Shown here piece after piece: positions 37,683-64,000 of a stretch of DNA of 64,000 bases. The translations under genes were made by a program, and so were the position numbers. The DNA is from Terrihabitans soli (lineage in GTDB: Bacteria > Pseudomonadota > Alphaproteobacteria > Rhizobiales > Methylopilaceae). The DNA is taken from the NCBI RefSeq assembly GCF_014191545.1, contig NZ_AP023361.1, forward strand, positions 186,001 through 250,000, given 5' to 3'. Numbering within the stretch: the stretch's first letter is position 1; every line of letters starts with the position of its first letter. The notes beneath the pieces are model-generated. The model ran no database searches, was not told the origin of the DNA, and saw only the letters and a program-made list of their open reading frames with translations.

Positions 37683-38663
37683 TCATTCCTCGGACGTCAG
37701 CGGCCGGGCGAGCAGCGTTTCGATCGCCTGACTGACGGTGATCTTGCCGTCGAGCACATCGCGCACCGCGGTTGCGATCGGCATTTCGACATGGTTCTTC
37801 TGCGCAAGCTCGACGAGGGCTTGGGCGGTGAAGGCGCCTTCCGCGAGTTTGCCATCAGGCGATGCACCTTTGCCGATGGCCACGCCGTAGGAGAAATTGC
37901 GCGATTGCGGCGAGGTTGCGGTCAATACGAGATCGCCAAGGCCCGAAAGCCCCATCAAAGTTTCCGGCTTGCCGCCGAGCGCCGAGCCGAAACGGCGCAG
38001 TTCGGCAAAGCCGCGCGCGATGAAGGCAGCGCCCGCGCTCTGGCCGAGGCCGACGCCGGCTGCAATCCCGGCGCCGATGGCGATGACGTTTTTCGCGGCG
38101 CCGCCGATCTCGACGCCTATGACGTCATCGGAATGGTAGAGGCGCAGAACCGGCGAGGCGAGGGCGCGCGACAAGTCCGCGGCCAGCCATTCATCCTTGG
38201 CGGCAAGTGTCACTGCCGCCGGAAGTCCGTGCGCAACATCAGCGGCAAAGCTCGGCCCCGACAGCGCGCAGGCCGGATTGTGCGGAAGAGTGGCGCGCAG
38301 AATCTGCGACATGAAAGAGAGCGAGCCGCGCTCAATACCCTTGGCGCAGGAAATGACGGGTACGTCTTTCTTCAAATGCGGCGCGGCAAGCGCGGCCGTC
38401 GCGCGCATATGCTGAGCCGGCACGACCATCAGCGCCGCATCGCAGCCGGCGATCGCGTGGATGTCGGCGGCGGGCGTGACTTCATCCGCAAGCTTCACGC
38501 CGGGAAGGTAAAGCGTATTGACGCGCTCTTTGATGAGGGCATTCGCCTGCTTCTCGTCGAACTCCCAGAGCACGACTTCGCGTCCGGCGCGGGCGGCGGC
38601 ATTCGCGAGCGCGGTGCCCCAGGCGCCTGCGCCGAGCACGGCGATCTTTCGGAACGAACTCAT
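37683..38663 (-). CDS. gpsA: NAD(P)-dependent glycerol-3-phosphate dehydrogenase
   Basis: GpsA reduces dihydroxyacetone phosphate to sn-glycerol 3-phosphate for phospholipid synthesis. The 326-residue protein has the Rossmann motif [16 protein letters not shown], the [11 protein letters not shown] segment, [27 protein letters not shown] with the catalytic lysine, and [14 protein letters not shown]. It overlaps tsaD by 4 bp (ATGA) and is followed immediately by the EVE gene. Confidence 0.95.
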
Positions 38664-46606: not shown

Positions 46607-47581
46607 TTAGTTGAGGCCGGCGATCTTGGCGCGCTGCTGGATGAGGGCCAGGACCACGTCGAGCGTGGGCGTCGCGACGTCCATCATGCGTCCCATTTCC
46701 TGGACGACGGTGACGAGCGGCTCGATTTCCATCGGGCGGCCGCGCTCGAGATCCTGCAGCATGGACGTCTTGTGGGCGCCGACAGCGCCCGCGCCGTTGA
46801 TGCGGCGTTCGACGTCGACGCGGAAATGCACACCCTGCTTGGTCGCGATTTCCTGGGCTTCGAGCATCATGGCCTTCGCTACGGCGCGCGTGCCGGGATC
46901 GGACGCGATGATATCGAGCGTCGCATGGGTCAGCGCCGAGATCGGGTTGAAGCAGAGATTGCCCCACAGCTTCAGCCAGAGTTCGTCGCGGATGTTTTCC
47001 ATGACCGGAGCGCGCAGGCCGCCGGCATTCATGACTTCCGACAGTCTCTCGATGCGCGCGGTCTTCTCGCCCGAAGGCTCGCCGATCGGGAATTTGTCGC
47101 CATAGACGTGCTGGATGACGCCGGGTTCCACGACTTCCGTCGCCGGATAGACGATGCAGCCGATGGCGCGTTCGGGACGCAGAGCGTTCCACTGCTTGGC
47201 GCCGGGATCGATCGTCTCGAGCGTGCGGCCTTCATAGGCGCCGCCGAATTTGTAGAAATACCAGTACGGCACCCCGTTGACGGCGGTGACGACCGAGGTG
47301 TCGTTGCCGAGAAGCGGCTGCATGGCATCGACCACGTTCGGCACCGAATGGGCCTTGAGCGCGATGATGACATAGTCCTGCGGGCCGAGCTCTTTCGGAT
47401 CGGAGGTGCAGTTCAGCTGTTCGACCCTCTCCTCACCGTCGATGATGAGTTTCAGGCCGTTCTTCTTCATGGCTTCCAGATGGGGCCCGCGAGCGACCAG
47501 GCTGACCTCGGCACCCGCGCGCGCAAGCTGCACGCCCATATAGCCGCCGATCGCGCCTGCTCCGTAGATGCAGATCTTCAT
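46607..47581 (-). CDS. panE2: PanE-family reductase, candidate oxalyl-CoA reductase
   Basis: This 324-residue protein has the ketopantoate reductase fold: Rossmann motif CIYGAGAIGGYMGVQLARAG at the start, GPQDYVIIALKAHSVPNVV, VTAVNGVPYW, then a helical C-terminal domain with KLWGNLCFNPISALT. By sequence alone it would be called 2-dehydropantoate 2-reductase. Context argues otherwise: it is the last gene of a gcl-hyi-glxR set and lies near oxc and frc. In Methylobacterium extorquens the PanE2 homologue in such a setting reduces oxalyl-CoA to glyoxylate. This would supply the substrate of Gcl. The assignment is an inference; pantothenate synthesis is the alternative. Confidence 0.75.
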   Translation of the reverse strand: MKICIYGAGAIGGYMGVQLARAGAEVSLVARGPHLEAMKKNGLKLIIDGEERVEQLNCTSDPKELGPQDYVIIALKAHSVPNVVDAMQPLLGNDTSVVTAVNGVPYWYFYKFGGAYEGRTLETIDPGAKQWNALRPERAIGCIVYPATEVVEPGVIQHVYGDKFPIGEPSGEKTARIERLSEVMNAGGLRAPVMENIRDELWLKLWGNLCFNPISALTHATLDIIASDPGTRAVAKAMMLEAQEIATKQGVHFRVDVERRINGAGAVGAHKTSMLQDLERGRPMEIEPLVTVVQEMGRMMDVATPTLDVVLALIQQRAKIAGLN

Positions 47582-47645
47582 TCAAACCCCTCCTGTCGGC
47601 TCCCGGTGCCGCGCAAGTCCTGCTGCGGCCGGGCTTTTTGTCCGT

Positions 47646-47721: not shown

Positions 47722-48612
47722 TCAGCCCTTGGCGATTTCGTGGCCCGAGAGCAGCTCGATGGCCTTGATCAGGGCCGAGTGGTCGAGCTGGGCGCCGCCA
47801 TTGGCCGCAAGGCCGTTCATCAGCTGAGCTGCCGTCGCCGTGTTCGGCAGAGCAACGCCGAGGGACCGCGCGCCGGTGAGGGCGAGGTTGAGGTCCTTCT
47901 GGTGCAGTTCGATGCGGAAGCCCGGATTGAAGGTGCGCTTGACCATGCGTTCGCCATGCACTTCGAGAATGCGCGAATTGGCGAACCCGCCCATCAGCGC
48001 TTCGCGGACCTTGGCCGGGTCGGCGCCGGCCTTGGCGGCGAAGACGAGCGCTTCGGCCACGGCCTGGATGTTGAGGGCGACGATGATCTGATTGGCGACC
48101 TTGGTGGTCTGACCGTCGCCATTGCCGCCGACGAGCGTGATGTTCTTGCCCATCTTCTCGAGCAGGGGCTTCACTTCGTCGAAGATCGCCTGGTCGCCGC
48201 CGCACATGATGGTCAGCGAGGCGGCTTTCGCGCCGACTTCACCGCCCGACACCGGAGCGTCGATATACTTGCCGCCGAGATCTTCGATCTTCTTGGCGAA
48301 CTTCTTGGTCTCGATCGGCGAGATCGACGACATGTCGACGACGATCTTGCCCTTGCCGAAGCCTTCGGCGACGCCGTTCTTGCCGAAGAGCACGTCTTCG
48401 ACATGGTGGGTGTCGGGCACCATGGTGAAAATGATGTCGGCCGCTTTCGCGACCTCAGCCGCGCTGCCGGCCTTCTTGCCGCCCGCGGCGACGAGATCTT
48501 CCGGCACGCCTTCGATCGTGTAGAGGTGCACCGTGTTGCCGGCGGCAATGAGATGGCCAGCCATGGGCTTGCCCATGATGCCGAGGCCGATAAAGCCGAG
48601 TGTCTTAGCCAT
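47722..48612 (-). CDS. glxR: Tartronate semialdehyde reductase (2-hydroxy-3-oxopropionate reductase)
   Basis: GlxR reduces tartronate semialdehyde to glycerate with NAD(P)H, following Gcl. The 296-residue beta-hydroxyacid dehydrogenase has LGFIGLGIMGKPMAGHLIAAG, the DAPVSGGEVGAKAASLTIMCGG signature and the catalytic lysine segment GDGQTTKVANQIIVALNI. The late NPGFRIELHQKDLNLAL is typical of GlxR/GarR. It lies 39 bp after hyi and before the PanE-like gene on the same strand. Confidence 0.93.
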   Translation of the reverse strand: MAKTLGFIGLGIMGKPMAGHLIAAGNTVHLYTIEGVPEDLVAAGGKKAGSAAEVAKAADIIFTMVPDTHHVEDVLFGKNGVAEGFGKGKIVVDMSSISPIETKKFAKKIEDLGGKYIDAPVSGGEVGAKAASLTIMCGGDQAIFDEVKPLLEKMGKNITLVGGNGDGQTTKVANQIIVALNIQAVAEALVFAAKAGADPAKVREALMGGFANSRILEVHGERMVKRTFNPGFRIELHQKDLNLALTGARSLGVALPNTATAAQLMNGLAANGGAQLDHSALIKAIELLSGHEIAKG

Positions 48613-48651: not shown

Positions 48652-49419
<768 letters not shown>

Positions 49420-49466: not shown

Positions 49467-51233
49467 TTACTCGGCCGGGATGCTCTCCGGGGCGAGATCG
49501 AGGACGTCCTCGAACTCGTTGATCTTGTCGATCTCGGTGCCCATGGCGATGTTGGTCACGCGCTCGAGAATGAACTCGATCACGACCGGCACCTGATGTT
49601 CCTTCATGAGTGCCTCGGCGCGCGCGAACGCGTCCTGGAACTCGTTCGGCGATTTCACGCGGACCGCTTTGCAGCCGAGGCCTTCGGCCACGGCGACATG
49701 GTCGACGCCGTAAGCGCCCGTCTCTTCTTCGGTGTTGATGTTATCGAAGGAGAGCGACACCTCGAAGTCCATGTTGAAGCCGCGCTGCGCCTGGCGGATG
49801 AGGCCGAGATACGAGTTGTTCACGACGACATGCAGGTAAGGCAGCTTGTGCTGCGCGCCGACCGCAAGTTCCTCGATGAGGAACTGGAAGTCATAGTCGC
49901 CCGAGAGCGCAACGATATGCGCATCCGGACGCGCGGCGCGCACGCCGAGAGCTGCGGGCAGCGTCCAGCCGAGCGGGCCGGCCTGGCCGCAATTGATCCA
50001 GTGGCGCGGCTTGTAGACGCGCAGGAACTGCGCGCCGGCGATCTGCGACAGGCCGATCGTCGTGACATAGACGGTGTCCTTGCCGAACGCGGTGTTCATT
50101 TCTTCATAGACGCGCTGCGGCTTCAGCGGGACGTTGTCGAAATGCGTCTTGCGTTGCATGCGGCGCTTGCGGTCGAGGCAGTCGGCCGCCCATTTCGAAC
50201 GGTCCTTGAGCTTGCCCTTCTTCTTGAGATCCTTGGCGACCTCAACGAAGAGCTCAAGCGCGGCCTTGGCGTCGGAGACGATGCCGAAATCGGGGCCGAA
50301 CACGCGGCCGATCTGGGTCGGCTCGATGTCGACATGGATGAATTTGCGGCCGGCGGTATAGACCTCGACCGAGCCGGTGTGGCGGTTGGCGAAGCGGTTG
50401 CCGATGCCGAAGACGAAGTCCGAGGCCAGCATGGTCGCATTGCCGTAGCGGTGGCTCGTCTGCAGGCCGCACATGCCGGCCATCAGGTCGTGATCGTCCG
50501 GGATCGTGCCCCAGCCCATCAGGGTCGGGATGACCGGAACGCCCGTCAGTTCGGCGAACTCAACCAGAAGTTCGGAGGCGTCGGCATTGATAATGCCGCC
50601 GCCGGCGACGATCAGCGGGCGCTCGGCCTCGTTGAGCATCTGGATGGCTTTCTCGGCCTGCTTGCGCGTCGCCTTCGGCTTGTAGACCTGCAGCGGCTCG
50701 TAGGTATCTTCGTCGAATTCGATCTCGGCCGTCTGCACGTCGACCGGAAGGTCGATGAGGACGGGGCCGGGGCGGCCAGACCGCATCAGATGGAAGGCCT
50801 GCTGGAACACCATCGGTACAAGGGCCGGTTCACGGACCGTGACGGCCCATTTGGTGACGGGCTTGGCGATGCTCTCGATATCGACGGCCTGGAAGTCCTC
50901 TTTATAGAGGCGGGCGCGCGGCGCCTGGCCGGTAATGCAGAGGATCGGAATGCTGTCGGCCTGGGCCGAATAGAGGCCGGTGATCATGTCCGTGCCGGCG
51001 GGGCCGGACGTGCCGATGCAGACGCCGATATTGCCGGCAACCGCACGGGTATAGCCCTCGGCCATATGCGAGGCGCCCTCGACATGACGGGCCAGGACGT
51101 GGCCGATCGAGCCACGGGCTTTCATCGCAGAATAGAGAGGGTTGATGGCGGCGCCGGGGACGCCGAAGGCGAGTTTGACGCCTTCCTTCTCCAGGACACG
51201 GACGGCCGCGTCTACGGCGCGCATCTTGGCCAT
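49467..51233 (-). CDS. gcl: Glyoxylate carboligase
   Basis: Gcl joins two glyoxylates to tartronate semialdehyde with loss of CO2, using thiamine diphosphate and FAD. The 588-residue protein is colinear with E. coli Gcl ([10 protein letters not shown] start; [25 protein letters not shown]). In [13 protein letters not shown] a valine (V51) stands where other ThDP enzymes have the catalytic glutamate, the known mark of Gcl. The ThDP motif begins GDYDFQF and continues to [10 protein letters not shown]. The ATG before AKMRAVD was chosen; longer starts are unlikely. It heads the gcl-hyi-glxR-panE2-like transcript. Confidence 0.96.
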
Positions 51234-51469
51234 GTGCAATTCCTTCACGCTGACGGCGCCCCGCTGTAAGGGAGCCACTTTATTATTGATGGAGATTTTG
51301 TTCGGGCTAGGCCGTGCCACAATCAGCCCGGGACCGCAACACGAAAGTAACACTAGCGTGAGCGGCCTGCGGTCTCACCCCGGGGGAAGGCGCAGCCGGA
51401 AACCCTATGGGAGCCAAAATGTCGCTCCCTTTCAGCCAAAAGTAGACGTGAATACGCCCTCAGTTTGCG

Positions 51470-51497
51470 ATATTGCCATCGCCAAGGCACGCAATAT
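51470..51497. promoter_or_regulatory. Inverted repeat ATATTGC-N14-GCAATAT in the gcl/tctC promoter region
   Basis: A perfect 7-bp inverted repeat with a 14-bp spacer sits in the 378-bp gap between divergent gcl and tctC, about 115 bp upstream of tctC and 237 bp upstream of gcl. Arm length and symmetry suit a dimeric regulator such as the GntR protein encoded at 56.0 kb, but this is not shown. The gap holds no gene. Confidence 0.45.
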
Positions 51498-51611
51498 ACT
51501 GCGCGCGCTTTAGCCGGACCCATTAACGGGCCGGCAGGGCACGAACCCGCATCCGCGGGTTGCTGGGATCCGCCGGTCAAGAGCGGACGAGACTGGGAGA
51601 GAGAGAACGCG

Positions 51612-52619
51612 ATGAAGAAAGAGCTATCCCGAATTGCGTCTTGCGGTGCGGTGGCTGCGGCTGCTGTTCTTGCGCTGACGGTGAGTGCGTCTGCGCAGTG
51701 GAAGCCGACGAAGACGGTTGAGTTTATCGTGCCGGCCGGCACGGGCGGCGGCGCCGACCAGATGGCGCGCACGCTTCAGGGTGTTATTCAGAAGCACGAG
51801 CTGATGGATCAGTCGCTTGTTGTTCTGAACAAGTCGGGCGGCGCCGGCGGCGAGGGCTTCCTCGACGTTAAGGGCTCGGCCGGCAATCCGCACAAGATCA
51901 TCATCACGCTGTCGAACCTGTTCACGACGCCTCTGTCGACGGGCATTCCGTTCAGCTGGCAGGACATCACGCCGGTTTCGATGCTGGCGCTTGACGAATT
52001 CGTCCTGTGGGTGAACTCGGAGTCTCCGTACAAGACGGCGGGCGATTACCTGACGGCTCTGAAGGCGTCCAAGCCGAACGACTTCAAGATGGCTGGTACC
52101 GGCACCAAGCAGGAAGACCAGATCATCACGGCGGCTCTTGAGCAGACGACGGGTGCGAAGTTCACCTATGTTCCGTTCAAGGGCGGCGGCGACGTCGTCA
52201 CGCAGCTGGTTGGCGGTCACGTGACCTCGACGGTGAACAACCCGATCGAAGCGGTTGCCCAGTGGCGCGCCGGCAAGGTCCGTCCGCTGTGCGTGTTCGA
52301 CAAGGAACGCCTGAAGTACACCGACAAGGTGACCTCGGACATGGCCTGGTCGGACATCCCGACCTGCATCGAGTCCGGCATCAACACGGACTATCTGATG
52401 CTGCGCGGCATCTTCATGCCGTCGGGCGTGGACCAGGCTGCGGTCGACTTCTATGTCGACCTCTTCAAGAAGGTCGCTGCGACCGACGAATGGAAGTCGT
52501 TCATGGCCAAGGGTGCGTTCAACACGACCACTCTGAGCGGAGCCGAATACAAAGCTTGGGTTGCTGACGCGGAAGCGCGCCACAAGGACCTGATGCAGAA
52601 GGCCGGCTTCCTGAAGTGA
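51612..52619 (+). CDS. tctC: TctC-type periplasmic solute-binding protein of a tripartite tricarboxylate transporter
   Basis: This 335-residue Bug-family protein has a signal peptide ending in LTVSASAQ. The mature part begins WKPTKTVEFIVPAGTGGGADQMARTL, the carboxylate-binding loop region of TctC proteins, and contains FTYVPFKGGGDVVTQLVGGHV, which contributes the second ligand loop. It delivers a carboxylate to the TctAB carrier. The ATG follows a GAGAGA leader. A strong terminator follows, then tctB 339 bp later. The substrate is unknown; oxalate, glyoxylate or a related small acid is suggested by the neighbours. Confidence 0.9.
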   Translation: MKKELSRIASCGAVAAAAVLALTVSASAQWKPTKTVEFIVPAGTGGGADQMARTLQGVIQKHELMDQSLVVLNKSGGAGGEGFLDVKGSAGNPHKIIITLSNLFTTPLSTGIPFSWQDITPVSMLALDEFVLWVNSESPYKTAGDYLTALKASKPNDFKMAGTGTKQEDQIITAALEQTTGAKFTYVPFKGGGDVVTQLVGGHVTSTVNNPIEAVAQWRAGKVRPLCVFDKERLKYTDKVTSDMAWSDIPTCIESGINTDYLMLRGIFMPSGVDQAAVDFYVDLFKKVAATDEWKSFMAKGAFNTTTLSGAEYKAWVADAEARHKDLMQKAGFLK

Positions 52620-52636
52620 TCTGACGAGATGAGAGA

Positions 52637-52674
52637 ACGCCCCCGGCTCCACTGAGCCAGGGGCGTTTTTTTCT
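52637..52674 (+). terminator. Rho-independent terminator after tctC
   Basis: The stem ACGCCCC(C)GGCT / AGCC(A)GGGGCGT is followed by a run of seven T. It lies 17 bp after the tctC stop, between the binding-protein and permease genes, and probably lowers tctBA expression relative to tctC. Confidence 0.88.
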
Positions 52675-52691
52675 GTGAGAGCAAAAGTTAA

Positions 52692-52790
52692 CTGAACCTG
52701 ACTGTTGTCAGGGTTCAGCAAAAGGGAGCTGAACCTGACTGTTGGAAGGGTTCGGCAACAGCACTGAACCCGGCTGTTGCCGGAGTTCAG
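52692..52790. repeat. Three tandem CTGAACC-family palindromes
   Basis: Three imperfect palindromic units follow one another at 52692-52718, 52729-52755 and 52764-52790. Each opens with CTGAACC, has a central CTGTTG and closes with GGTTCAG, GGTTCGG or AGTTCAG. Unit 1 has flank GCAAAAGGGAG. They lie in the tctC-tctB intergenic region after the terminator. The remaining 52791-52958 shows only a T-rich, GC-mixed leader of tctB with no gene. Confidence 0.75.
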
Positions 52791-52958
52791 AAGAACAATG
52801 GTTTCTTCCGGCTCTTCAGCGTGCCGGGTTCTTCTTCCGGTCCCGGGATAGGGGGCGGACCTTGAGTGTCTTCGGGGCCTGTACATACAGGTCCTGAGGT
52901 TTTGGGGTGTACGGCCGTCCTGAGGATGGGCCGTCTTTTGAAGTTTTGAGGGGGTCAG

Positions 52959-53468
52959 ATGAGCAAGCATAGCAGCGCACCGGGCGAATACACGGTGTCG
53001 TACCGCTCGGTCGACGCGGTCGTGGCGCTCCTTTTCATGGCGCTGTCCTGCGTCGTGATGTGGGACAGCTGGGGCATCGGCGCCAAATGGGCGTCGGATG
53101 GTCCGCAGGCGGGTTACTTCCCGTTCTATATCGGGCTGATCATGTTTATCGCGAGCTTGGGTACGCTCGTGCAGTCGATCATCACGAAGACGCCGAACCT
53201 TGAGACCTTCGTCGAGAAGGGCCAGCTCAAAATGGTTCTGGCGGTTCTCGTTCCGACGGCTGTGTATGTTGCGGCGATCCCGTTCCTTGGCCTTTACGTG
53301 GCCGGCGCGATCTTCATCGCCTTCTTCATGGTGGCGATTGGCAAGTACAACATCCTGAAAGCGATCCCGGTCGCGATCGGCGTGCCTTTGGCACTCTTCA
53401 TCCTGTTCGAGATCTGGTTCCTCATTCCGCTGCCCAAGGGCCCGGTTGAGAACTTCCTCGGCTACTGA
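52959..53468 (+). CDS. tctB: TctB-type small permease subunit
   Basis: This 169-residue protein has four hydrophobic segments and matches the TctB pattern: VDAVVALLFMALSCVVMWDSWGIG, the GPQAGYFPFYIGLIMFIASLGTL loop typical of the family, and a FEIWFLIPLPKGPVENFLGY end. TctB partners the large TctA channel in tripartite tricarboxylate transporters. The ATG follows GAGGGGG with suitable spacing. A 116-bp gap separates it from tctA. Confidence 0.88.
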   Translation: MSKHSSAPGEYTVSYRSVDAVVALLFMALSCVVMWDSWGIGAKWASDGPQAGYFPFYIGLIMFIASLGTLVQSIITKTPNLETFVEKGQLKMVLAVLVPTAVYVAAIPFLGLYVAGAIFIAFFMVAIGKYNILKAIPVAIGVPLALFILFEIWFLIPLPKGPVENFLGY

Positions 53469-53584
53469 CGATCAGTCTCGCCGCGGCAGGGGGTCTGCTG
53501 CGGCGTCATTTGAGTTTCACAAAAGAACAGCGCCACTAGAAGTCCTTCAGCCCTTAAGGCAGGACCGGCGCTCCGGAGGGGGTC

Positions 53585-55126
53585 TTGGACGCGTTATACT
53601 CACTCATTGAAGGCTTCGGCGTTCTCGGCGATCCGTGGAACATTTTCTACATGTTCCTCGGCGTCACACTGGGCGTTCTCATCGGCGTGCTGCCGGGTCT
53701 TGGCGGCGCCAACGGCGTTGCCATCCTTCTGCCGCTGACATTCTCGATGTCGCCGGTGTCGGCGATCATCATGCTGTCGTCGATCTATTGGGGCGCGCTG
53801 TTCGGCGGCGCGATCACCTCGGTCCTGTTCAACATTCCGGGCGAGCCCTGGTCTGTTGCGACGACCTTTGACGGCCATCCGATGGCGCAGAAGGGACGGG
53901 CCGGCGAAGCGCTCACAGCAGCCTTCACCTCGTCCTTCCTCGGCGGCACGGTGGCGGTCCTTCTGATCACCTTCCTTGCGCCGATCATCGCGGACTTTGC
54001 GCTTGAATTCGGCCCGGCCGAGTTCTTCGGCGTCTATCTTTTGACCTTCTGCTCCTTCGTGGGCATGGGCAAGGAATCGCCGTTCAAGGTTCTGGCGGCG
54101 ATGATGCTCGGCTTTGCTCTTGCCGCGGTCGGTCTCGACTCGGTGACGGGCACGCTGCGCATGACGTTCGGCACGGTCGAGCTGCTGCGCGGCTTTGACT
54201 TCCTGATCGCGGTTATCGGCCTGTTCGGCGTCGGCGAGATTCTGCTGACGATCGAAGAAGGACTGTCGTTCAAGGGCAAGTCGGCGACGATCTCGCCGAC
54301 CGTTGTCTGGCAGACCTGGAAGCAGATCCCGCAGCATTGGGCGACGATCATCCGCGGGGCGGTCGTCGGCTGCTGGATGGGCATCACGCCGGGCGGCGCA
54401 ACGCCGGCCTCGTTCATGTCCTACGGTCTGGCCAAGCGCTTCTCGAAGCGTGGCCGGTTCTTCGGCACGGGCGAACTCGAAGGCGTTGTGGCGCCCGAGA
54501 CCGCGGCGCATGCCGCCGGTACTTCGGCTCTGCTCCCGATGCTGACGCTCGGCATTCCCGGCTCGCCGACGGCGGCCGTCATGCTCGGCGGTCTTCTGAT
54601 CTGGGGTCTTCAGCCGGGTCCGCTTCTGTTCGTCGAACAGAAGGAATTCGTCTGGGGTCTGATCGCCTCGATCTATCTCGGCAATATCGCGGGCCTTCTC
54701 GTCGTTCTGACGACGGTGCCGCTGTTTGCCTCGATCCTGCGCATTCCGTTCTCGATCATCGCTCCCGTGATCCTCGTGATCTGCGCGGTCGGTGCGTACA
54801 CGGTGCACAATGCGTTCGGCGACGTTGCCGTCATGCTGTTCTTCGGCCTGCTCGGTTACGTGTTCAAGAAGCTGAACTATCCGCTGGCGCCTCTGGTTCT
54901 GGCGCTGGTGCTTGGCGATATGGCTGAATCGGCCTTCCGTCAGGCCATGCTGGTCAGCCAGGGCGACCTCACGGTCTTCTGGTCGAACTGGCTTGTCGGC
55001 GGTCTTGTGACGCTCGCGCTGCTGATGCTGTTCTGGCCGGCGATCTCGTTCCTTCTCGGCCGCCTGCTCGGCAAGAAGGGCGGCGCCGACGAGGATGACG
55101 GTCAGGTTGAGACCAAAGCCGTCTGA
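53585..55126 (+). CDS. tctA: TctA-type large permease subunit, TTG start
   Basis: This 513-residue membrane protein has about 12 spans and the two TctA glycine-rich motifs, LIGVLPGLGGANGVAILLPLTF near the N-terminus and LTLGIPGSPTAAVMLGGLLIWG in the second half. ALFGGAITSVLFNIPGEPWSVAT is also typical. Start: a TTG after the strong site GGAGGGGG at 53576; no ATG or GTG lies nearby, and the sequence from DALYSLIEGFGVL matches other TctA N-termini. It ends with a charged tail and is followed by a terminator. Confidence 0.93.
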   Translation: MDALYSLIEGFGVLGDPWNIFYMFLGVTLGVLIGVLPGLGGANGVAILLPLTFSMSPVSAIIMLSSIYWGALFGGAITSVLFNIPGEPWSVATTFDGHPMAQKGRAGEALTAAFTSSFLGGTVAVLLITFLAPIIADFALEFGPAEFFGVYLLTFCSFVGMGKESPFKVLAAMMLGFALAAVGLDSVTGTLRMTFGTVELLRGFDFLIAVIGLFGVGEILLTIEEGLSFKGKSATISPTVVWQTWKQIPQHWATIIRGAVVGCWMGITPGGATPASFMSYGLAKRFSKRGRFFGTGELEGVVAPETAAHAAGTSALLPMLTLGIPGSPTAAVMLGGLLIWGLQPGPLLFVEQKEFVWGLIASIYLGNIAGLLVVLTTVPLFASILRIPFSIIAPVILVICAVGAYTVHNAFGDVAVMLFFGLLGYVFKKLNYPLAPLVLALVLGDMAESAFRQAMLVSQGDLTVFWSNWLVGGLVTLALLMLFWPAISFLLGRLLGKKGGADEDDGQVETKAV

Positions 55127-55150
55127 TCGACGTCAGACAACGTAACGACA

Positions 55151-55185
55151 AAGCCGGGCGCGCAAGCGCCCGGCTTTTTGTTTTG
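55151..55185 (+). terminator. Rho-independent terminator after tctA
   Basis: A 10-bp stem AAGCCGGGCG / CGCCCGGCTT with a 6-nt loop is followed by TTTGTTTT. It ends the tctBA transcript 25 bp beyond the stop codon. Confidence 0.9.
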
Positions 55186-55208
55186 AGCCTGTGCTCCGAT
55201 TTTTGGTT

Positions 55209-55237
55209 GCTGAACCCTCGCAACAGCGAGGTTCAGC
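55209..55237. repeat. CTGAACC-family palindrome at the end of the CBS gene
   Basis: GCTGAACCCTCG / CGAGGTTCAGC with a central CAACAG overlaps the CBS gene stop codon (minus strand) and follows the tctA terminator. It may help end the CBS transcript; read on the minus strand it is followed by the familiar flank GGGTTCAGCAACCAAAAA. Confidence 0.7.
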
Positions 55238-55640
55238 CAGCCAACTCCTCAAGGCGGAGCGCAATGAAGTCTCTGATCGAGACGACGCCGATAAGCGTCG
55301 TGCCGTCGATGACGGGCAGATGGCGCACATAATGGCGGTCCATCAGCTCGAGCACGATTTTGAGATCATCGTTCGGATGGCAGGAGATGACCTTGCGCGA
55401 CATCAGAGCCGAGACCGGCTTTTTGAGTGCGGCCGCGCCATGCTCGACGACGGCGTGCAGAAGATCGCGTTCTGAGAACATGCCGACAATCGTGTCGCCT
55501 TCGGTGCCGACCGAGTCCTTGACGACCAGCGCCCCGACATTCTCCTTGCTGAGGAGACGCGCCGCCGTCTCGACCGGCTCGTCCATGCGCGCCGTCAGAA
55601 TGCGCGTGCCCTTCTTCCTCAGGAGTTCGGCGACCTTCAT
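55233..55640 (-). CDS. Two-CBS-domain protein
   Basis: This 135-residue protein is a tandem CBS pair: TARMDEPVETAARLLSKENVGALVV...IVGMFSERDLLHAV in the first and PVSALMSRKVISCHPNDDLKIVLELMDRHYVRHLPVI...LIGVVSIRDFIALRL in the second. Such proteins bind adenine nucleotides and act as energy-state sensors for a partner protein. It starts at an ATG with AGGAG site 5 bp upstream, and a palindrome immediately precedes that site. It lies convergent with tctA and 400 bp from the GntR gene. Its partner is unknown. Confidence 0.9.
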   Translation of the reverse strand: MKVAELLRKKGTRILTARMDEPVETAARLLSKENVGALVVKDSVGTEGDTIVGMFSERDLLHAVVEHGAAALKKPVSALMSRKVISCHPNDDLKIVLELMDRHYVRHLPVIDGTTLIGVVSIRDFIALRLEELAG

Positions 55641-55655
55641 CGGATCTCCTTTTTG

Positions 55656-55682
55656 CCGAACCCTCGGGTGACCGAGGTTCGG
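55656..55682. repeat. CTGAACC-family palindrome in the CBS leader
   Basis: CCGAACCCTCGG / CCGAGGTTCGG with a GTGA loop lies just upstream of the CBS gene's ribosome-binding site. On the minus strand it is followed by GCAAAAAGGAG, where the AGGAG is the Shine-Dalgarno itself. The hairpin could thus influence translation. The gap from 55683 to 56041 has no clear gene. Confidence 0.7.
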
Positions 55683-55948
55683 ATTCTCCGTTTCAACGCT
55701 TGCCGAAGGGTGAGGGGGGGAGGGTGCCTCTGTCAAACCGAAGCCCGCTCCGGAGAGACGTTGCCCCCTTTATTCGGTTTTGGTGCCGGAGGCTGCCAGG
55801 GCCCTTGCCGGCCCGAACCGGCCGATAAGGGCCAAGTCCTTGAACCGGAAACCGTTGCTGCTCTTGGAGCGGTGGGGTCTTAACGGACGCTCCGCCCTGT
55901 GATCGGAAGGGCATGACATTGGTGTGAATCTGATTGCGTGCGGCTGTG

Positions 55949-55968
55949 GCATACAGTAGACCATATGC
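55949..55968. promoter_or_regulatory. Inverted repeat GCATA-N10-TATGC upstream of the GntR gene
   Basis: A short inverted repeat with a 10-bp spacer lies about 75-90 bp upstream of the GntR start. Autoregulation through such a site is common for FCD-type regulators, but a 5-bp arm is weak evidence. Confidence 0.3.
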
Positions 55969-56041
55969 GCGCATCGCGTCCCGCGGCCGCCCGTTTGAGG
56001 CAGGCTTTTAAAGGGCGCGTTCCCGTGGGAATTTTGATCTT

Positions 56042-56731
56042 TTGCAGCAGCTTGCGTCACCGAAGCTCCATGTGGAGCCCTTGGGCGTCAATGTCAGCCT
56101 GCGGGTTCTGGCCTATGACGCCTTGAAGAAGGCGATCATGGGCATGGACATTTACGGCTCCGAGCAGCCGATCCGCCTTGATGAGCGCCAGCTCTCGGCG
56201 GAGCTTGGCGTGTCGCGCACGCCCATCCGCGAAGCCATTACACTTCTGGAACAAGAGGGCTTTGTGCGCTCGGTGCCGCGGCGCGGCATTTTTGTGGTCC
56301 GCAAGACCAAGGCGCAGATCCTCGAACTCATTACCGTATGGGCAGCGCTTGAGAGCATGTCGGCACGGCTGGCGGCAGCGCGCGCCAGTGACAAGGACCT
56401 CGTTCAGCTGAAGCGCGTCTATGGCGGCGATGAGAGCGAAGACGATGTCTCCGAATATTCGGAGAAGAACGTCGCCTTCCACCAGGCCATCATCCGGCTC
56501 GGCGGCAACAAGCAGATCATGGATCTGTCGGACAATCTTATTTTGCACATGCGGGCGATCCGGGCGGTGTCGATCCGCCAGGAGGGCCGCTTTGAGACCT
56601 CGCGGCGCGAGCATGCGGGGATCATCGCCGCGCTTGAAGCGCGCGATGGCGACCGGGCGGAACGGCTGGTGCGCGAGCACACTCTGGGGCTCGGCACGCA
56701 TGTCGAACGGCATGGAGTTTTTCCCGAGTAA
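56042..56731 (+). CDS. GntR family regulator, FCD-type
   Basis: This 229-residue regulator has an N-terminal winged helix-turn-helix (LDERQLSAELGVSRTPIREAITLLEQEGFVRSVPRRGIFV) and an all-helical FCD effector domain with a metal-binding pattern hinted at by FHQAIIRLGGN and REHAGIIAAL. FCD domains usually bind small carboxylates. It lies directly before oxc in the same direction and is the only regulator in the oxalate/glyoxylate block, so it is a good candidate for its control. A TTG is the first in-frame start; a GTG ten codons on is possible, and no ATG is near. Confidence 0.85.
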   Translation: MQQLASPKLHVEPLGVNVSLRVLAYDALKKAIMGMDIYGSEQPIRLDERQLSAELGVSRTPIREAITLLEQEGFVRSVPRRGIFVVRKTKAQILELITVWAALESMSARLAAARASDKDLVQLKRVYGGDESEDDVSEYSEKNVAFHQAIIRLGGNKQIMDLSDNLILHMRAIRAVSIRQEGRFETSRREHAGIIAALEARDGDRAERLVREHTLGLGTHVERHGVFPE

Positions 56732-56904
56732 AGGGCCGGTTTAAGGCCCGTACGCGGGAGGGGGAGGGGGTGCCTCCGCAATCGTTACAGTCCGGGTTCG
56801 GGCCTGTCCGATTACGGTGGCATTCAAGGGCCAATTCGGCTATGGGCGAGCCTGCGCTAAGCCCCCGAAGAGGCGACGGCAACGATTTTTGAAGGAGGAC
56901 GTCC

Positions 56905-58656
56905 ATGGTGACGGCTGTGGAGACGGTAAAAGAATTGGCTGCGAACGCCGAGAGCCAGCAGGAGTTGACGGACGGCTTCCATCTGGTCATCGATGCGCTG
57001 AAGCTGAACGGCATTGAGACGATCTACGGCGTCCCGGGTATTCCGATCACCGATCTTGGACGTCTGGCGCAGGCGAACGGCATGCGCGTCATCTCGTTCC
57101 GCCACGAGCAGAACGCGGGTAACGCGGCTGCCATCGCCGGCTTTCTGACGAAGAAGCCGGGCATCTGCCTGACGGTGTCGGCGCCGGGCTTCCTCAACGG
57201 CCTGACGGCTCTGGCTCACGCCACCACAAACTGCTGGCCGATGATCCTGATCTCGGGCTCCTCGGAGCGCGAAGTGGTCGACCTGATGCAGGGCGATTAT
57301 GAGGAGATGGATCAGCTGGCGATCGCAAAGCCGCTCTGCAAAGCGGCCTATCGCGTTCTGCACGCCGAAGACATCGGCATCGGCGTTGCCCGCGCGATCC
57401 GCGCGGCGGTGTCGGGCCGTCCGGGCGGCGTCTATCTCGATCTGCCGGCCAAACTCTTCAGCCAGGTTCTCGAAGCCTCGAAGGGCACTGAGAGCCTTGT
57501 GAAGGTGATCGATGCGGCCCCGGCCCAGATCCCGGGCCCCGATGCCGTCAAGCGTGCGATCGATGTGCTGAAGGGCGCAAAGAAGCCTCTCATCATTCTC
57601 GGTAAAGGTGCTGCGTATGCGCAGGCCGATGCGGAAGTGCGTACCTTCGTCGAGAAGAGCGGCATTCCCTTCCTGCCGATGTCGATGGCCAAGGGTCTTC
57701 TGCCGGACAACCATCCGCAGTCGGCCGGTGCTGCCCGCTCCACCGCTCTTCTGGAATCGGATGTCGTCGTTCTCGTCGGCGCCCGTCTCAACTGGCTGCT
57801 CAGCCACGGCAAGGGCAAGCAGTGGGGCCCGAAGGGCTCGAAGAAGTTCATCCAGATCGATATCGAGCCCAAGGAAATGGATTCGAATATCGAGATCGCA
57901 GCGCCGCTCGTCGGCGATATCGGCTCGGTTCTGAACGAGCTGAACAAGGCGATCGACGGCAAGTGGCAGGCGCCGCCGGCCGACTGGGTCAAGACGATCA
58001 ACGACAAGAAAGAGCAGAACATCGCCAAGATGGCGTCCAAGCTCGGCAAGAACTCCTCGCCGATGGACTTCCACTCGGCGCTGGGTGCCCTCAAGCAGGT
58101 CATCAAGGAGCGTCCGGACGCGATCCTCGTCAATGAGGGCGCCAACACGCTCGATCTGGCCCGCGGCATCATCGATATGTACAAGCCGCGCAAGCGCCTC
58201 GATGTCGGCACCTGGGGCGTCATGGGCGTCGGCATGGGTTCTGCGATCGCAGCGGCCGTCGAGACCGGTCTTCCGGTTCTGGCGGTCGAAGGCGACAGCG
58301 CCTTCGGCTTCTCAGGCATGGAAGTCGAAACGATCTGCCGCTACCAGCTGCCGGTGACGATCGTCATCTTCAACAATAACGGCATCTATCGCGGCATCGA
58401 CAAGGACCCGACGGGCCGCGATCCGGGCACCACGGTGTTTGTGCCGGATGCGCGCTACGACAAGATGATGGAGGCCTTCGGCGGCAAGGGCTATTACGCC
58501 ACGAGCCCCGACGAGCTGAAGCGCATGGTCGATGAGGCCATGAACTCAAAGAAGCCGGCCCTCATCAACGCCGTCATCGACCCCGAAGCAGGCTCCGAAT
58601 CCGGCAATATCGGAAACCTCAACCCGCAATCGGTCGTCGGTAAGAAAAAGGCCTAA
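56905..58656 (+). CDS. oxc: Oxalyl-CoA decarboxylase
   Basis: Oxc converts oxalyl-CoA to formyl-CoA and CO2 with thiamine diphosphate. The 583-residue protein has the conserved catalytic glutamate (about E68) in [45 protein letters not shown] typical of Oxc, and the ThDP motif [18 protein letters not shown] followed by [30 protein letters not shown] is also family-typical. A strong GAAGGAGGA site lies 4-8 bp before the ATG. frc follows after 272 bp. Confidence 0.96.
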
Positions 58657-58928: not shown

Positions 58929-60179
58929 ATGACAAAGCCGCTTGAAGGGATCAAAATCATCGACTTCACGCACGTCCAGGCCGGTCCGGCCTGCACGCAG
59001 CTTCTCGCCTGGTTCGGCGCCGACGTTATCAAGGTCGAGCGTCCGGGTGCCGGCGACGTGACGCGCTCGCAGCTGCGCCACGTGGAAGGCGCGGACGCGC
59101 TCTACTTCACCATGCTGAATTCGAACAAGCGTTCGCTGACGCTCGACACGAAGACGCAGGAAGGTAAGGACGTCCTCACCAAGCTCATCAAGGAATCGGA
59201 CGTCATGGTCGAGAACTTCGGCCCCGGCGCTCTCGACCGCATGGGCTTCTCCTGGGACAACATCCAGAAGATCAATCCGGGCATGATCCTCGCTTCGGTG
59301 AAGGGCTTCTCGGACGGCCATCACTACGAAGATCTGAAGGTTTACGAGAACGTCGCGCAGTGCGCCGGCGGCGCTGCGTCGACCACCGGTTTCTGGGACG
59401 GCCCGCCGACCGTGTCGGCTGCCGCGCTCGGCGACTCGAACACCGGTATGCACCTTGCGATCGGCATCCTCACGGCGCTGCATCACAAGAACAAGACCGG
59501 CAAGGGCCAGAAGGTCGCCGTGTCCATGCAGGACTCGGTGCTCAATCTCTGCCGCGTCAAGCTGCGCGACCAGCAGCGTCTGGATGCCATCGGCTATCTC
59601 GAAGAGTATCCGCAGTATCCGCACGGCTCGTTCTCGGACGTCGTTCCGCGCGGCGGCAATGCCGGCGGCGGCGGTCAGCCGGGCTGGGTTCTGAAGTGCA
59701 AGGGCTGGGAAACCGACCCGAACGCCTACATCTACTTCACCATCCAGGGTCATGCCTGGGCGCCGATCTGCAAAGCTCTCGGCAAGGAAGAGTGGATCGA
59801 GGACGCGGCCTACAACACGCCGCGCGCCCGTCAGGACAAGATTTTCGATATCTTCAAGACGATCGAAGACTGGCTCGCCGACAAGACCAAGTTCGAAGCG
59901 GTCGACATTCTGCGCAAATTCGACATCCCGTGCTCGCCGGTTCTGTCGATGAAGGAAATCGCCGAAGACAAGTCGCTGCGTGAAAGCGGCACCGTTGTCG
60001 AAGTCGACCATCCGCAGATCGGCAAGTATCTGACGGTCGGCTCGCCGATCAAGTTCTCGAACTACAAACCGGAAATCGTGGCTTCGCCGCTCCTCGGCCA
60101 GCACACGAACGAAGTGCTTGCGGGTCTCGGCTACAGCCAGGAAGACATCACCAAGCTGCACGACCTCAAGGCCGTCTGA
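58929..60179 (+). CDS. frc: Formyl-CoA:oxalate CoA-transferase
   Basis: Frc moves CoA from formyl-CoA to oxalate, giving oxalyl-CoA and formate. The 416-residue class III CoA-transferase starts [26 protein letters not shown]. It has the catalytic aspartate at position 169 ([11 protein letters not shown]), the same number as in Oxalobacter formigenes Frc, and the glycine-loop [12 protein letters not shown] that closes over the active site. [25 protein letters not shown] is also typical. It is followed by its own terminator. Confidence 0.96.
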
Positions 60180-60302: not shown

Positions 60303-61076
60303 TCAGAGTTCGACGGTGTTGTCGAGCTGGCCGATGCCGTCGATGATGATCGAGACCTGATTGACGGGCTCCTTCATCGAGCCTACGCCGACCGAGGTGC
60401 CGCATTCGATCAGATCGCCCGGATGAAGCGTCATGTCGTGCGAGAGCAGCGAGACGAGCTTTGCTGCCGAGAAGATCATGTCGGAGATCGCATAGTTCTG
60501 ACGCTCCTGACCGTTCAGGATCGTCTTCACCGTCAGCGTTTCCGGCTTCACATCGGTGGCGATGACCGGGCCGAACGGCCCGAAGCCGTCGCAGCCTTTG
60601 GCGCGCGCCCACTGAGGGAAAGTCGGGTCCTTCTGGATGATGGCGGCGGCGGTAATGTCGTTGACGACGGTGTAGCCGAAAATGTGCGAGGCGGCGTCGG
60701 CCTCAGACACATTCGTCGCCTTCTTGCCGATGACGATGCCGAGCTCGCCTTCGAACACGACGGGGCCGTCATAGTTCTTCGGCTTCTTCACGACCGCACC
60801 GGGATCGGTGATCGAGGAGATCGATTTCAGAAGGAACAGCGGCTCGGCGGGTTCCGCCACGTTGAGCTTTGCGGCAAGCGCATGAAAATTGTTCCACATC
60901 GCGATGATTTTCGTCGGCTCGCAGGGCGAGCGCAGCTTCACATCGGAGAGCTTGAGCGTCTCTCCCGTCGGCTTAGGATTATCGAACAGCGAGCCGGAAT
61001 GAACGGCGATTGCGCCATCCTTCAGCGTGCCGATGGCGGTCTTGCCGCCATGGTCAAAACGGACCCAGTGCGCCAT
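60303..61076 (-). CDS. Fumarylacetoacetate hydrolase family protein
   Basis: This 257-residue protein has the FAH catalytic fold: KIIAMWNNFHALAAKL, the metal-binding acidic motif FEGELGIVIGKKA, GYTVVNDITAAAIIQKD and GDLIECGTSVGVGSM. Family members act as acylpyruvate hydrolases, oxaloacetate decarboxylases or diketo-acid hydratases; the exact activity cannot be told from sequence. It sits between frc and pyk. The ATG before AHWVRFDHGG was chosen; an upstream TTG or GTG extension has no similarity. Confidence 0.85.
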   Translation of the reverse strand: MAHWVRFDHGGKTAIGTLKDGAIAVHSGSLFDNPKPTGETLKLSDVKLRSPCEPTKIIAMWNNFHALAAKLNVAEPAEPLFLLKSISSITDPGAVVKKPKNYDGPVVFEGELGIVIGKKATNVSEADAASHIFGYTVVNDITAAAIIQKDPTFPQWARAKGCDGFGPFGPVIATDVKPETLTVKTILNGQERQNYAISDMIFSAAKLVSLLSHDMTLHPGDLIECGTSVGVGSMKEPVNQVSIIIDGIGQLDNTVEL

Positions 61077-61128
61077 ATGCGCTCTCCCCTCCAAAAATGC
61101 TGAACACTACTTTTGCGGCCGGTTCTTT

Positions 61129-62547
61129 TTATTCGCTGCCGACCTGGAAAATACGAAGCAGGTTTGTCGAGCCGGACTGCGCAAACGGCATGCCGGCGGT
61201 CACCGCCATGATGTCTCCGTCCTTCACGGCGTCGTACTTTTTCGCGACATCGGTTGCGAAGGCGACGATCTGTGAGACCTTTTCGAGATCCTGCGTAACG
61301 ACGGCGCTGACGCCCCACACATAAGACATGCGGCGCGCGACTTCGATCTTCGGCGTCAGGCAGAAGATCGGAACGAGCGGACGCTCGCGCGCGGCGCGCA
61401 AAGTCGTCGAGCCCGAGGTCGTGTAGGTCGCGGCGGCGGCGAGCGGCAGAACGCTGGCGACAGTGCCGAGCGAGGCGCAAATCGCATCGGCGATCGTGCC
61501 GCGCGGCGCCGGACGCGAGGTTTCGATCAGGCGCTTATATTCCGGATCCTTTTCCGTCTCGACGACGATCTTGCTCATCATCGTCACGGCTTCGATCGGG
61601 AATTTGCCGGAGGCGCTTTCGGCCGAGAGCATGACGGCGTCCGCACCTTCATAGACGGCGGTCGCAACGTCCGAGGCTTCGGCGCGTGTCGGTGTTGGCG
61701 TGTGGATCATGCTTTCCAGCATCTGCGTTGCGACGATCACCGGTTTTCCGTATTCGCGCGACAGCTTGATCATGCGCCGCTGCACGGCTGGGATTTCTTC
61801 CGGCTGCATTTCGACGCCGAGATCGCCGCGCGCCACCATGATGCCGTCCGAGGCATCGACGATTTCCTCAAGGCAATCGACGGCGGCGGGCTTTTCGATC
61901 TTCGACATGATCAAAGCGCGATCGCCGATCAGTTTGCGCGCATCGTGCAGGTCCTGCGCGCGCTGCACGAACGAGAGCGCGATCCAGTCGGCGCCATTGG
62001 CGAGGCCGAATTCGAGGTCGCGGCGGTCCTTTTCGGTGATGACGTCGAGCGGCAGAACCGCGCCGACAACGCTGACGCCCTTGCGTTCGGACAGAACGCC
62101 GCCGGTGATGATCTTGCCGATCATGTAGTCTTTGCCGTGTTCGGCGACTTCCATGCGGATCTTGCCGTCATCGAGCAGGATCTGAACGCCGGGCTTGGCG
62201 GCCGCGAAGATTTCCTTGTGCGGAAGATAGGCGCGCGTTTTGTCGCCGGGCGCAGAGTCAAGATCGAAGCGGAACGTCTCGCCGTTCGCGAGCGTCACCG
62301 GGCCGTCCTTGAAGGTACCGACGCGCAGTTTCGGGCCCTGCAGATCGAGCAGGATGCCGATCGCAACACCGGTTTTCTTTTCGAGGGCGCGGATCGCCTC
62401 AAAGCGCGCTTTGTGATCTTCATGCGTGCCGTGGCTCATATTGAGGCGGAACATGTCCACCCCGGCATGAAACAGCTTTTCGAGCATTTCGGGGCTCGAT
62501 GAAGCAGGCCCGACGGTCGCGACGATTTTGGCTTTGCGGTTGCGCAT
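61129..62547 (-). CDS. pyk: Pyruvate kinase
   Basis: Pyk converts phosphoenolpyruvate to pyruvate with ATP formation. The 472-residue protein has IVATVGPASSSPEMLEKLFHAGVDMFRLNMSHGTHEDH, the active-site signature IMSKIEKPAAVDCLEEIVDASDGIMVARGDLGVE, and the TQMLESMIHTPTPTRAEASDVATAVYEGADAVMLSAE loop. It lies 36 bp after the glycerate kinase gene and likely shares its transcript, placing the end of the glycerate route next to its entry. The ATG before RNRKAKIVAT was chosen over a TTG in the gap. Confidence 0.96.
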   Translation of the reverse strand: MRNRKAKIVATVGPASSSPEMLEKLFHAGVDMFRLNMSHGTHEDHKARFEAIRALEKKTGVAIGILLDLQGPKLRVGTFKDGPVTLANGETFRFDLDSAPGDKTRAYLPHKEIFAAAKPGVQILLDDGKIRMEVAEHGKDYMIGKIITGGVLSERKGVSVVGAVLPLDVITEKDRRDLEFGLANGADWIALSFVQRAQDLHDARKLIGDRALIMSKIEKPAAVDCLEEIVDASDGIMVARGDLGVEMQPEEIPAVQRRMIKLSREYGKPVIVATQMLESMIHTPTPTRAEASDVATAVYEGADAVMLSAESASGKFPIEAVTMMSKIVVETEKDPEYKRLIETSRPAPRGTIADAICASLGTVASVLPLAAAATYTTSGSTTLRAARERPLVPIFCLTPKIEVARRMSYVWGVSAVVTQDLEKVSQIVAFATDVAKKYDAVKDGDIMAVTAGMPFAQSGSTNLLRIFQVGSE

Positions 62548-62583
62548 GTTTTTTACAGCGGGCGCGGCGCCCGCTCCCTTCAA

Positions 62584-63876: not shown

Positions 63877-64000
63877 TTTTGCCTTCCACCAGGGAAGCAG
63901 TTTTGTGGCGGAACTACCCGGCAAATTCAACCGCGGAACCGGGACCGCGGCAAAAAGGCTTCAAACCAATGTTTTAACCGGTTACGACAATCCGCGTCGA

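Follow-up and report, generated by a model that had tools for sequence, protein, structure and literature searches.

A PanE-like protein closing a glyoxylate carboligase gene run is probably an oxalyl-CoA reductase of the PanE2/ApbA2 type

We propose that the PanE-like protein encoded at positions 46607 to 47581 (minus strand) of a 64,000-nucleotide stretch of Terrihabitans soli DNA (the window) probably belongs to the PanE2/ApbA2 type of enzyme and reduces oxalyl-CoA with NADPH, a reading drawn from its sequence, phylogeny, gene linkage, and genomic co-occurrence. The reduction of oxalyl-CoA by PanE2/ApbA2 is itself already known. An initial annotation of this DNA had put forward this function in place of the ketopantoate reductase (KPR) that an automatic call would give. 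We find the oxalyl-CoA reductase supported by the phylogeny, by neighbors in many genomes, and by genome-level co-occurrence, and the automatic call is indeed as predicted: the best NCBIfam model for the protein (P0002) is NF005089, a broad model named 2-dehydropantoate 2-reductase, whose score of 529 bits (cutoff, 223) excludes a chance match. A second model of that name, TIGR00745, is also passed (189 bits; cutoff, 141). These two subfamily models are the only listed ones whose cutoff P0002 passes, and among the KPR equivalog models listed in NCBIfam none reaches its cutoff (best, 178 versus 252 bits). In Pfam, the protein combines ApbA (PF02558; 92.5 bits) and ApbA_C (PF08546; 102.9 bits). 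Its open reading frame (ORF) proved intact, filling the interval exactly from ATG to stop on the minus strand and encoding 324 amino acids (aa), with a Shine-Dalgarno-like AGGAGGGG at 47587 to 47594 (minus strand), 5 bases upstream of the ATG. The plus-strand frame over the same interval is open too, but we rejected it as a coding gene, as the family matches sit in the minus frame.

Following gcl, hyi, and glxR, P0002 closes a minus-strand run and lies near frc and oxc, in agreement with the initial annotation. A gap of 140 bases separates it from glxR (tartronate semialdehyde reductase, 47722 to 48612; TIGR01505, 426 bits; cutoff, 341), which is preceded by hyi (hydroxypyruvate isomerase, 48652 to 49419, minus strand; TIGR03234, 396 bits; cutoff, 353; the 2-oxo-tetronate isomerase model NF043033 is passed as well, with 393 versus 325 bits) and gcl (glyoxylate carboligase, 49467 to 51353, minus strand; TIGR01504, 1,174 bits; cutoff, 711), whose profile match starts about 40 codons into the ORF and whose true start is probably near 51233. 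Three plus-strand genes that we named by recognition encode a tctC-like substrate-binding protein (51465 to 52619), without an NCBIfam match at 1e-20 and possibly a subunit of an oxalate importer, a tctB-like small membrane subunit (52959 to 53468), and a tctA-like large membrane subunit (53585 to 55126), homologs of which stand before AAE3-panE in Rhodobacterales. On the same strand are the genes for a GntR-family regulator (56042 to 56731; best model below its cutoff), relatives of which accompany panE2 and oxc in both Microvirga and Cupriavidus, oxc (oxalyl-CoA decarboxylase, 56905 to 58656; TIGR03254, 1,012 bits; cutoff, 739; Protein Data Bank [PDB] code 7ayg, 1,037 bits), and frc (formyl-CoA:oxalate CoA-transferase, 58929 to 60179; TIGR03253, 714.5 bits; cutoff, 504). 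Thus oxc and frc, the latter for an enzyme that makes oxalyl-CoA, lie 9.3 kb and 11.3 kb, respectively, from P0002, on the opposite strand. The remaining genes, again on the minus strand, encode a FAH-family hydrolase (60303 to 61094), which is a recurrent panE2 neighbor, pyruvate kinase (pyk, 61129 to 62583; TIGR01064, 502 bits; cutoff, 306), and a glycerate-2-kinase-like protein, of the ttuD type by recognition (62584 to 63930; NF041176, 262 bits; cutoff, 550; below both listed cutoffs). An equivalog cutoff is passed by each of Oxc, Frc, Gcl, Hyi, GlxR, and pyruvate kinase and none by the glycerate kinase. Measured against established pathways, the block covers the route between oxalate and pyruvate, minus the step from oxalyl-CoA to glyoxylate unless P0002 supplies it, in agreement with the earlier remark that the block would otherwise have no such link. 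The step from phosphoglycerate to phosphoenolpyruvate is expected outside the block, elsewhere in the genome.

According to papers that cite it, PanE2 was reported by Schneider et al. in 2012. Among CHARACTERISED relatives, Methylobacterium extorquens PanE2 converts oxalyl-CoA to glyoxylate in an in vitro assay described in passages of PMC8411744, and passages of PMC9485241 describe the M. extorquens enzyme, there called PanE, as reversible and as assayed in the direction of oxalyl-CoA formation. According to passages of PMC7486775, Cupriavidus necator ApbA2 was identified because it is 51% identical to PanE2 and is encoded next to frc-oxc, and after deletion of apbA2 the cells doubled every 10 h on oxalate instead of every 6.5 h. 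We located the first of these enzymes by way of PDB entry 7ayg, which we took to be M. extorquens Oxc from its chain length, 583 residues, fitting E567 plus 16 residues in passages of PMC8411744, and from its four differences from 7b2e, which agree with the positions mutated in that paper; neither PDB code appears in the text of the paper. The 7ayg sequence is 99% identical to the Oxc of a genome of the M. extorquens group (G282) that encodes two PanE-like proteins. One of them (L137) is 48 to 49% identical to P0002 and matches NF005089 with 437 bits (cutoff, 223); the other (L153) is 29% identical to P0002 and matches the equivalog NF005094 with 417 bits (cutoff, 382). NF005089 is not the best model for either L153 or Escherichia coli PanE. 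By the Oxc identity and by family, L137 is the candidate for M. extorquens PanE2, and L153 appears to be an ordinary PanE. Cupriavidus sp. 2SB has two paralogs. L028, with identities of 72% to P0002 and 49% to L137, is the one that would fit ApbA2 and its reported 51%; for L120, the identities are 39% and 40%, respectively. The L028 sequence is from this relative, not from strain H16.

Judged by this 72% identical homolog, which shares a subclade with P0002 at 100/94 and lies near frc-oxc, the ApbA2 of C. necator H16 is similar to P0002 and differs in gene order, L028 standing in panE-gntR-frc-fah-oxc-frc and P0002 at the end of the gcl-hyi-glxR run. The M. extorquens candidate likewise resembles P0002 in identity, in NF005089 membership, and in having the same active-site residues where checked, but its setting is another one. 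The initial annotation had likened the position of P0002 to that of M. extorquens panE2, and this likeness did not hold: in G282 and G224 the candidate gene has as its neighbors not gcl or frc/oxc but an OxlT-type antiporter (TIGR04259, 622 bits; cutoff, 335), a FAH-family gene, and an AAE3-like ligase, in the order oxlT-fah-panE2-AAE3, with oxc on another contig in G282 and on the same contig, at a distance of about 1 Mb, in G224. The closer characterized relative of P0002 appears from these comparisons to be the Cupriavidus ApbA2 type, which adjoins frc-oxc.

We compared P0002 with PanE2 and true PanE in two trees, a check that the initial annotation had called for. ORFs shorter than 270 or longer than 400 aa were removed, the set was thinned according to identity, and proteins of the PanE2 level (at least 47% identity) were omitted if shorter than 290 aa. 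A quick tree of 82 proteins placed the 60 PanE2-level rows on one side of a branch with an SH-aLRT value of 95 and P0002 in a group of eight rows (97) that includes genes of Cupriavidus and Caballeronia. The careful tree had 47 rows, with 31 at the PanE2 level and six long-branch rows dropped. It joined P0002 with Ancylobacter L008, Microvirga L027, Cupriavidus L028, Caballeronia L078, and two further rows (L030 and L175) at 100/94, and at 100/98 it set the PanE2-level rows together with the sister rows apart from E. coli PanE and L153. In neither tree did P0002 fall in a clade with E. coli PanE or L153. The groups of M. extorquens PanE2 and of P0002 formed one clade against the sister group in 26% of the bootstrap trees of the careful analysis; given this weak deep node and the subclade at 100/94, the firm link is that of P0002 to the ApbA2 type.

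For the active site, we took the residue roles (NADPH binding, catalysis by Lys176 and Glu256, and substrate-contacting Asn and Ser) to be those of E. coli PanE (b0425), which shares with P0002 the family, the NADPH-binding Gly motif, and the catalytic Lys and Glu. P0002 keeps N98 (as N102), K176 (K204), N180 (N208), N184 (N212), S244 (S273), and E256 (E285), along with the predicted NADPH-site residues R31 and K72 (K76). Six of the seven active-site positions checked are unchanged, and hence the pocket does not exclude ketopantoate; the seventh, N194, is Leu222. P0002 further departs from E. coli PanE in its low identity (23%) and in about 21 extra residues after N102: the segment from N102 to I143 has a median of 40 residues in PanE2-level proteins and 37 in the sister group, versus 20 in other PanEs and 19 in E. 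coli PanE, so that the insert is common to the PanE2-level and sister groups. Two positions distinguish those groups, H270, conserved in 170 of 171 PanE2-level rows versus 5 of 21 sister rows, and E295, conserved in 171 of 171 versus 2 of 21. These residues are consistent with an altered pocket in a reductase whose mechanism is unchanged; alone, they do not show the substrate.

In the pathway that we envisage, Frc would load CoA onto oxalate, and one share of the oxalyl-CoA would be decarboxylated by Oxc to formyl-CoA for energy, with the other share being converted by P0002 to glyoxylate and CoA. Glyoxylate would then be taken towards pyruvate by enzymes that are likewise encoded in the block, namely, Gcl, GlxR, glycerate kinase, and pyruvate kinase. 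Chemically, with the KPR fold and the catalytic K204 and E285 kept, an NADPH hydride would attack the thioester carbonyl and the thiohemiacetal would collapse to glyoxylate and CoA, a reaction that is reversible. We infer the substrate, cofactor preference, in-cell direction, regulation, and transport associated with P0002.

We examined the neighborhoods of PanE2-level genes at 80 loci kept from 150 in a scan of named genomes and at 79 loci from a sample of the order, counting neighbors at identity thresholds that we set ourselves and with a reach of 9.6 kb, flanks being short near contig ends. Many of these loci come from close relatives (e.g., Ancylobacter and Marivita) and do not represent independent events. 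In Ancylobacter the order is oxc-frc-frc-gcl-hyi-glxR-panE-fah, all in one direction, and in Microvirga it is panE-gntR-oxc-frc. In Marivita and other Rhodobacterales, panE2 comes after an acyl-CoA synthetase gene, often behind tctCBA. The best PDB matches of that synthetase are to oxalate-CoA ligase/oxalyl-CoA synthetase (411, 381, and 343.5 bits), with malonyl-CoA synthetase reaching up to 195 bits; no NCBIfam equivalog model corresponds to this AAE3-type ligase, for which the best model, FadD7, stays below its cutoff (406 of 650 bits). The arrangement of tctCBA followed by the AAE3-type ligase and panE2 (L041 and other Rhodobacterales loci, 5.2 to 9.9 kb) suggests oxalate import by this Tct transporter. 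The window, too, has tctCBA-like genes, between gcl and oxc.

At the 80 named-genome loci, an AAE3 gene was a neighbor in 44, oxc/frc in 17, and gcl/hyi/glxR in 25; 72 had any of these or the antiporter, and 8 had none. The corresponding figures for the 79 order loci were 25, 11, and 6, with none of these or the antiporter at 33. By comparison, 0 of 20 sister loci (38 to 42% identity) had AAE3, oxc/frc, gcl/hyi/glxR, or the antiporter. Where both flanks reached 3 kb or more, such neighbors were lacking at 2 of 58 named, 23 of 63 order, and 18 of 18 sister loci. Ten further loci, from oxc genomes or prior loci and including three repeats, all had such neighbors (10/10) and were not used as evidence. 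AAE3 and oxc/frc, two routes for forming or consuming oxalyl-CoA, have one reductase in common and were never found in one neighborhood (0/80 named and 0/79 order loci). A FAH-family gene, with no evident place in an oxalate route, stands beside panE2 at 25 of the 80 named and 22 of the 79 order loci; examples are L159, Ancylobacter loci such as L008, and, in the window, the gene at 60303 to 61094.

At the level of whole genomes, the order sample of 297 contained a PanE2-level gene in 76 genomes (ten others, with matches of only 38 to 43% identity, being counted outside them), oxc in 62, and AAE3 of at least 59% identity, a threshold set after we had seen a gap in the identities, in 27. All 27 of these AAE3 genomes have a PanE2-level gene; with no threshold, the figure is 28 of 29, the match at 50% (G489) being without one and that at 45% (G355) with one. 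PanE2-level genes coincide with oxc in 41 genomes and with oxc or AAE3 in 64 of the 76, leaving 12 with neither, while 21 of the 62 oxc genomes have no PanE2-level gene and 23 of the 27 AAE3 genomes have no oxc. Genomes with another strong ApbA_C protein and no PanE2 show no such excess (oxc or AAE3 in 18 of 111). Of the 20 genomes with a sister gene, 10 carry oxc or AAE3 (Fisher P = 0.03), and each of these 10 has a PanE2-level gene as well; oxc or AAE3 was found in 0 of the 10 genomes with a sister gene only. Such genome-level Fisher P values ignore relatedness; at the level of genera, with genus codes counted by hand, all 13 AAE3 genera are among the 39 PanE2 genera of 122 (P = 7e-8). An in-frame TGA in seven AAE3 matches was dismissed as an end effect: inspection of the seven flagged loci and one unflagged locus showed a stop in three, located two positions short of where the alignment ends, and none in the others.

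The pantothenate question bears on several alternative readings. The window lies within a single contig of 3,114,641 bases, in a genome that is 99.1% complete, and the only ApbA_C match genome-wide is P0002. At a loose threshold, PF02558 has four matches above cutoff, namely, P0002, a gpsA-like ORF at 37683 to 38663 (named by recognition), and two short matches (74 positions) in longer frames, and ApbA_C was not found in the latter three proteins. The initial annotation had advised a search for a second panE near panB/panC, and none was found, P0002 lying at 0.23 Mb and panB and panC at 1.50 and 1.83 Mb. It had also named as contrary to its proposal a place in the true PanE clade with no other panE in the genome; the latter part is what we observe, but the former is not, P0002 being apart at 100/98. 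P0002 might accordingly combine oxalyl-CoA reduction with service as the cell's only KPR for vitamin B5, a reading that overlaps the preferred one and that we consider unlikely. It draws on the sole copy in a genome with panB and panC, on the retention of K204, E285, N102, N208, N212, and S273, and on the single ApbA_C match in 20 of the 76 PanE2-level genomes (at the PanE2-level gene in 17, at an unlisted place in G440 and G552, and elsewhere in G322, whose PanE2-level match is a fragment) and in 13 of 24 named-locus genomes. However, P0002 is unlinked to panB and panC, and a sole ApbA_C copy is no proof of a pantoate role, given that 78 of 243 panB-bearing genomes of the order are without any ApbA_C match; for this reason we dropped the argument that the sole ApbA_C protein must be the pantoate enzyme. 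In the same 297 genomes, of which 43 fall outside the class of at least 90% completeness and at most 5% contamination, ApbA_C occurs in 204 and panB in 251, the 243 omitting eight weak-match genomes (E above 1e-7) and retaining a few whose matches, of middling strength (down to 2e-16), could come from paralogs; one of these, G435 (2e-40), is among the 78. Another KPR must therefore be common in the order, with IlvC as a candidate.

An ordinary KPR that came to lie beside glyoxylate genes by chance would account for the NCBIfam name, the fold, and the sole ApbA_C copy, but we rejected it on phylogeny and repeated linkage and regard it as extremely improbable: P0002 is below every listed equivalog cutoff, the 100/98 split sets it apart from E. 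coli PanE and L153, linkage to oxalate genes recurs in both alpha- and betaproteobacteria, and G282 has a separate PanE, L153, above its equivalog cutoff. We give a modest chance, the largest among the alternatives, to the same enzyme working mainly oxidatively, from glyoxylate and CoA to oxalyl-CoA, with disposal of glyoxylate via Oxc, which also overlaps the preferred reading. The reversibility and the assay of oxalyl-CoA formation in passages of PMC9485241 are in keeping with it, as is the proposal of this direction in C. necator on glycolate in passages of PMC7486775, where, however, it is a secondary route; moreover, P0002 ends a glyoxylate-consuming gcl run, and the transporter and frc suggest oxalate as the substrate. 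Finally, the recurrent FAH-family neighbors and the 33 of 79 order loci without oxalate neighbors could mean that P0002 reduces some other 2-oxo acid or acyl-CoA and that the FAH-family enzyme is its partner in a pathway linked to glyoxylate. This is very unlikely in our judgment, as the AAE3-type oxalate-CoA ligase, Oxc/Frc, and the OxlT-type antiporter point independently to oxalate. Counting against the preferred reading itself are those order loci, the 12 of 76 PanE2-level genomes with neither oxc nor AAE3, and the 21 of 62 oxc genomes without a PanE2-level gene, along with the weak deep node, the sole ApbA_C copy beside panB and panC, and the unchanged active-site positions.

In the literature passages covered, we found no description of a panE at the end of gcl-hyi-glxR; nor was the pairing of AAE3 and PanE2 in bacteria found among the open papers listed or in the passages seen, namely, those of PMC8411744, PMC12686821, PMC12927642, PMC7486775, PMC3720670, PMC11045627, PMC10127448, PMC9485241, and PMC10192776. 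The gene set of an oxalotrophy survey, as given in passages of the last of these, comprises oxdC, oxc, frc, and oxlT. We think it somewhat more probable than not that the clade of P0002 marks an overlooked oxalate-assimilation module that dispenses with decarboxylase and CoA-transferase and consists of an AAE3-type ligase, a PanE2-type reductase, and a Tct, ABC, or OxlT-type transporter, the same reductase being built, in the window, into a glycerate operon serving oxc/frc. The AAE3-PanE2 module occurs in Rhodobacterales, Hyphomicrobiales, and some gammaproteobacteria. If this is true, oxalotrophs with only that module would be missed by surveys for oxc, frc, or oxdC, and a second class of oxalate users, uncounted by oxc-based surveys, could be recognized in sequence data by the linkage to the AAE3-type ligase. 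Plasmid records assign pantothenate biosynthesis to panE2-like genes; together with the name of NF005089, this means that automatic models would add a vitamin B5 step that genomes may lack there, and they would also miss the route from oxalate to biomass in such genomes.

Several additional loci deserve mention. On a Phyllobacterium plasmid (L303), panE2-fah is followed by a gene annotated as BhcR, with frc and a thiamine diphosphate (ThDP) enzyme 26% like Oxc nearby; BhcR is the name of a regulator from the beta-hydroxyaspartate (glyoxylate) cycle. In Nonomuraea (L305) and Cupriavidus metallidurans (L302), panE2-like genes are near frc and an Oxc-like protein of 27 to 28% identity, which is perhaps another ThDP lyase. 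In the window, a CBS-domain gene (55233 to 55736) lies between tctA and gntR, and a similar gene is directly behind panE2 in Skermanella and Azospirillum plasmids (L301 and L306). The tctCBA-gntR-oxc stretch of the window (51599 to 55649 and 55911 to 58656) has a second copy in the same genome with 99.8 to 99.9% nucleotide identity (L280, G000:C1:940000-959900), the product of a recent duplication or gene conversion; a differing stretch lies between the two copied segments, and a different frc (72%) stands behind the second copy.
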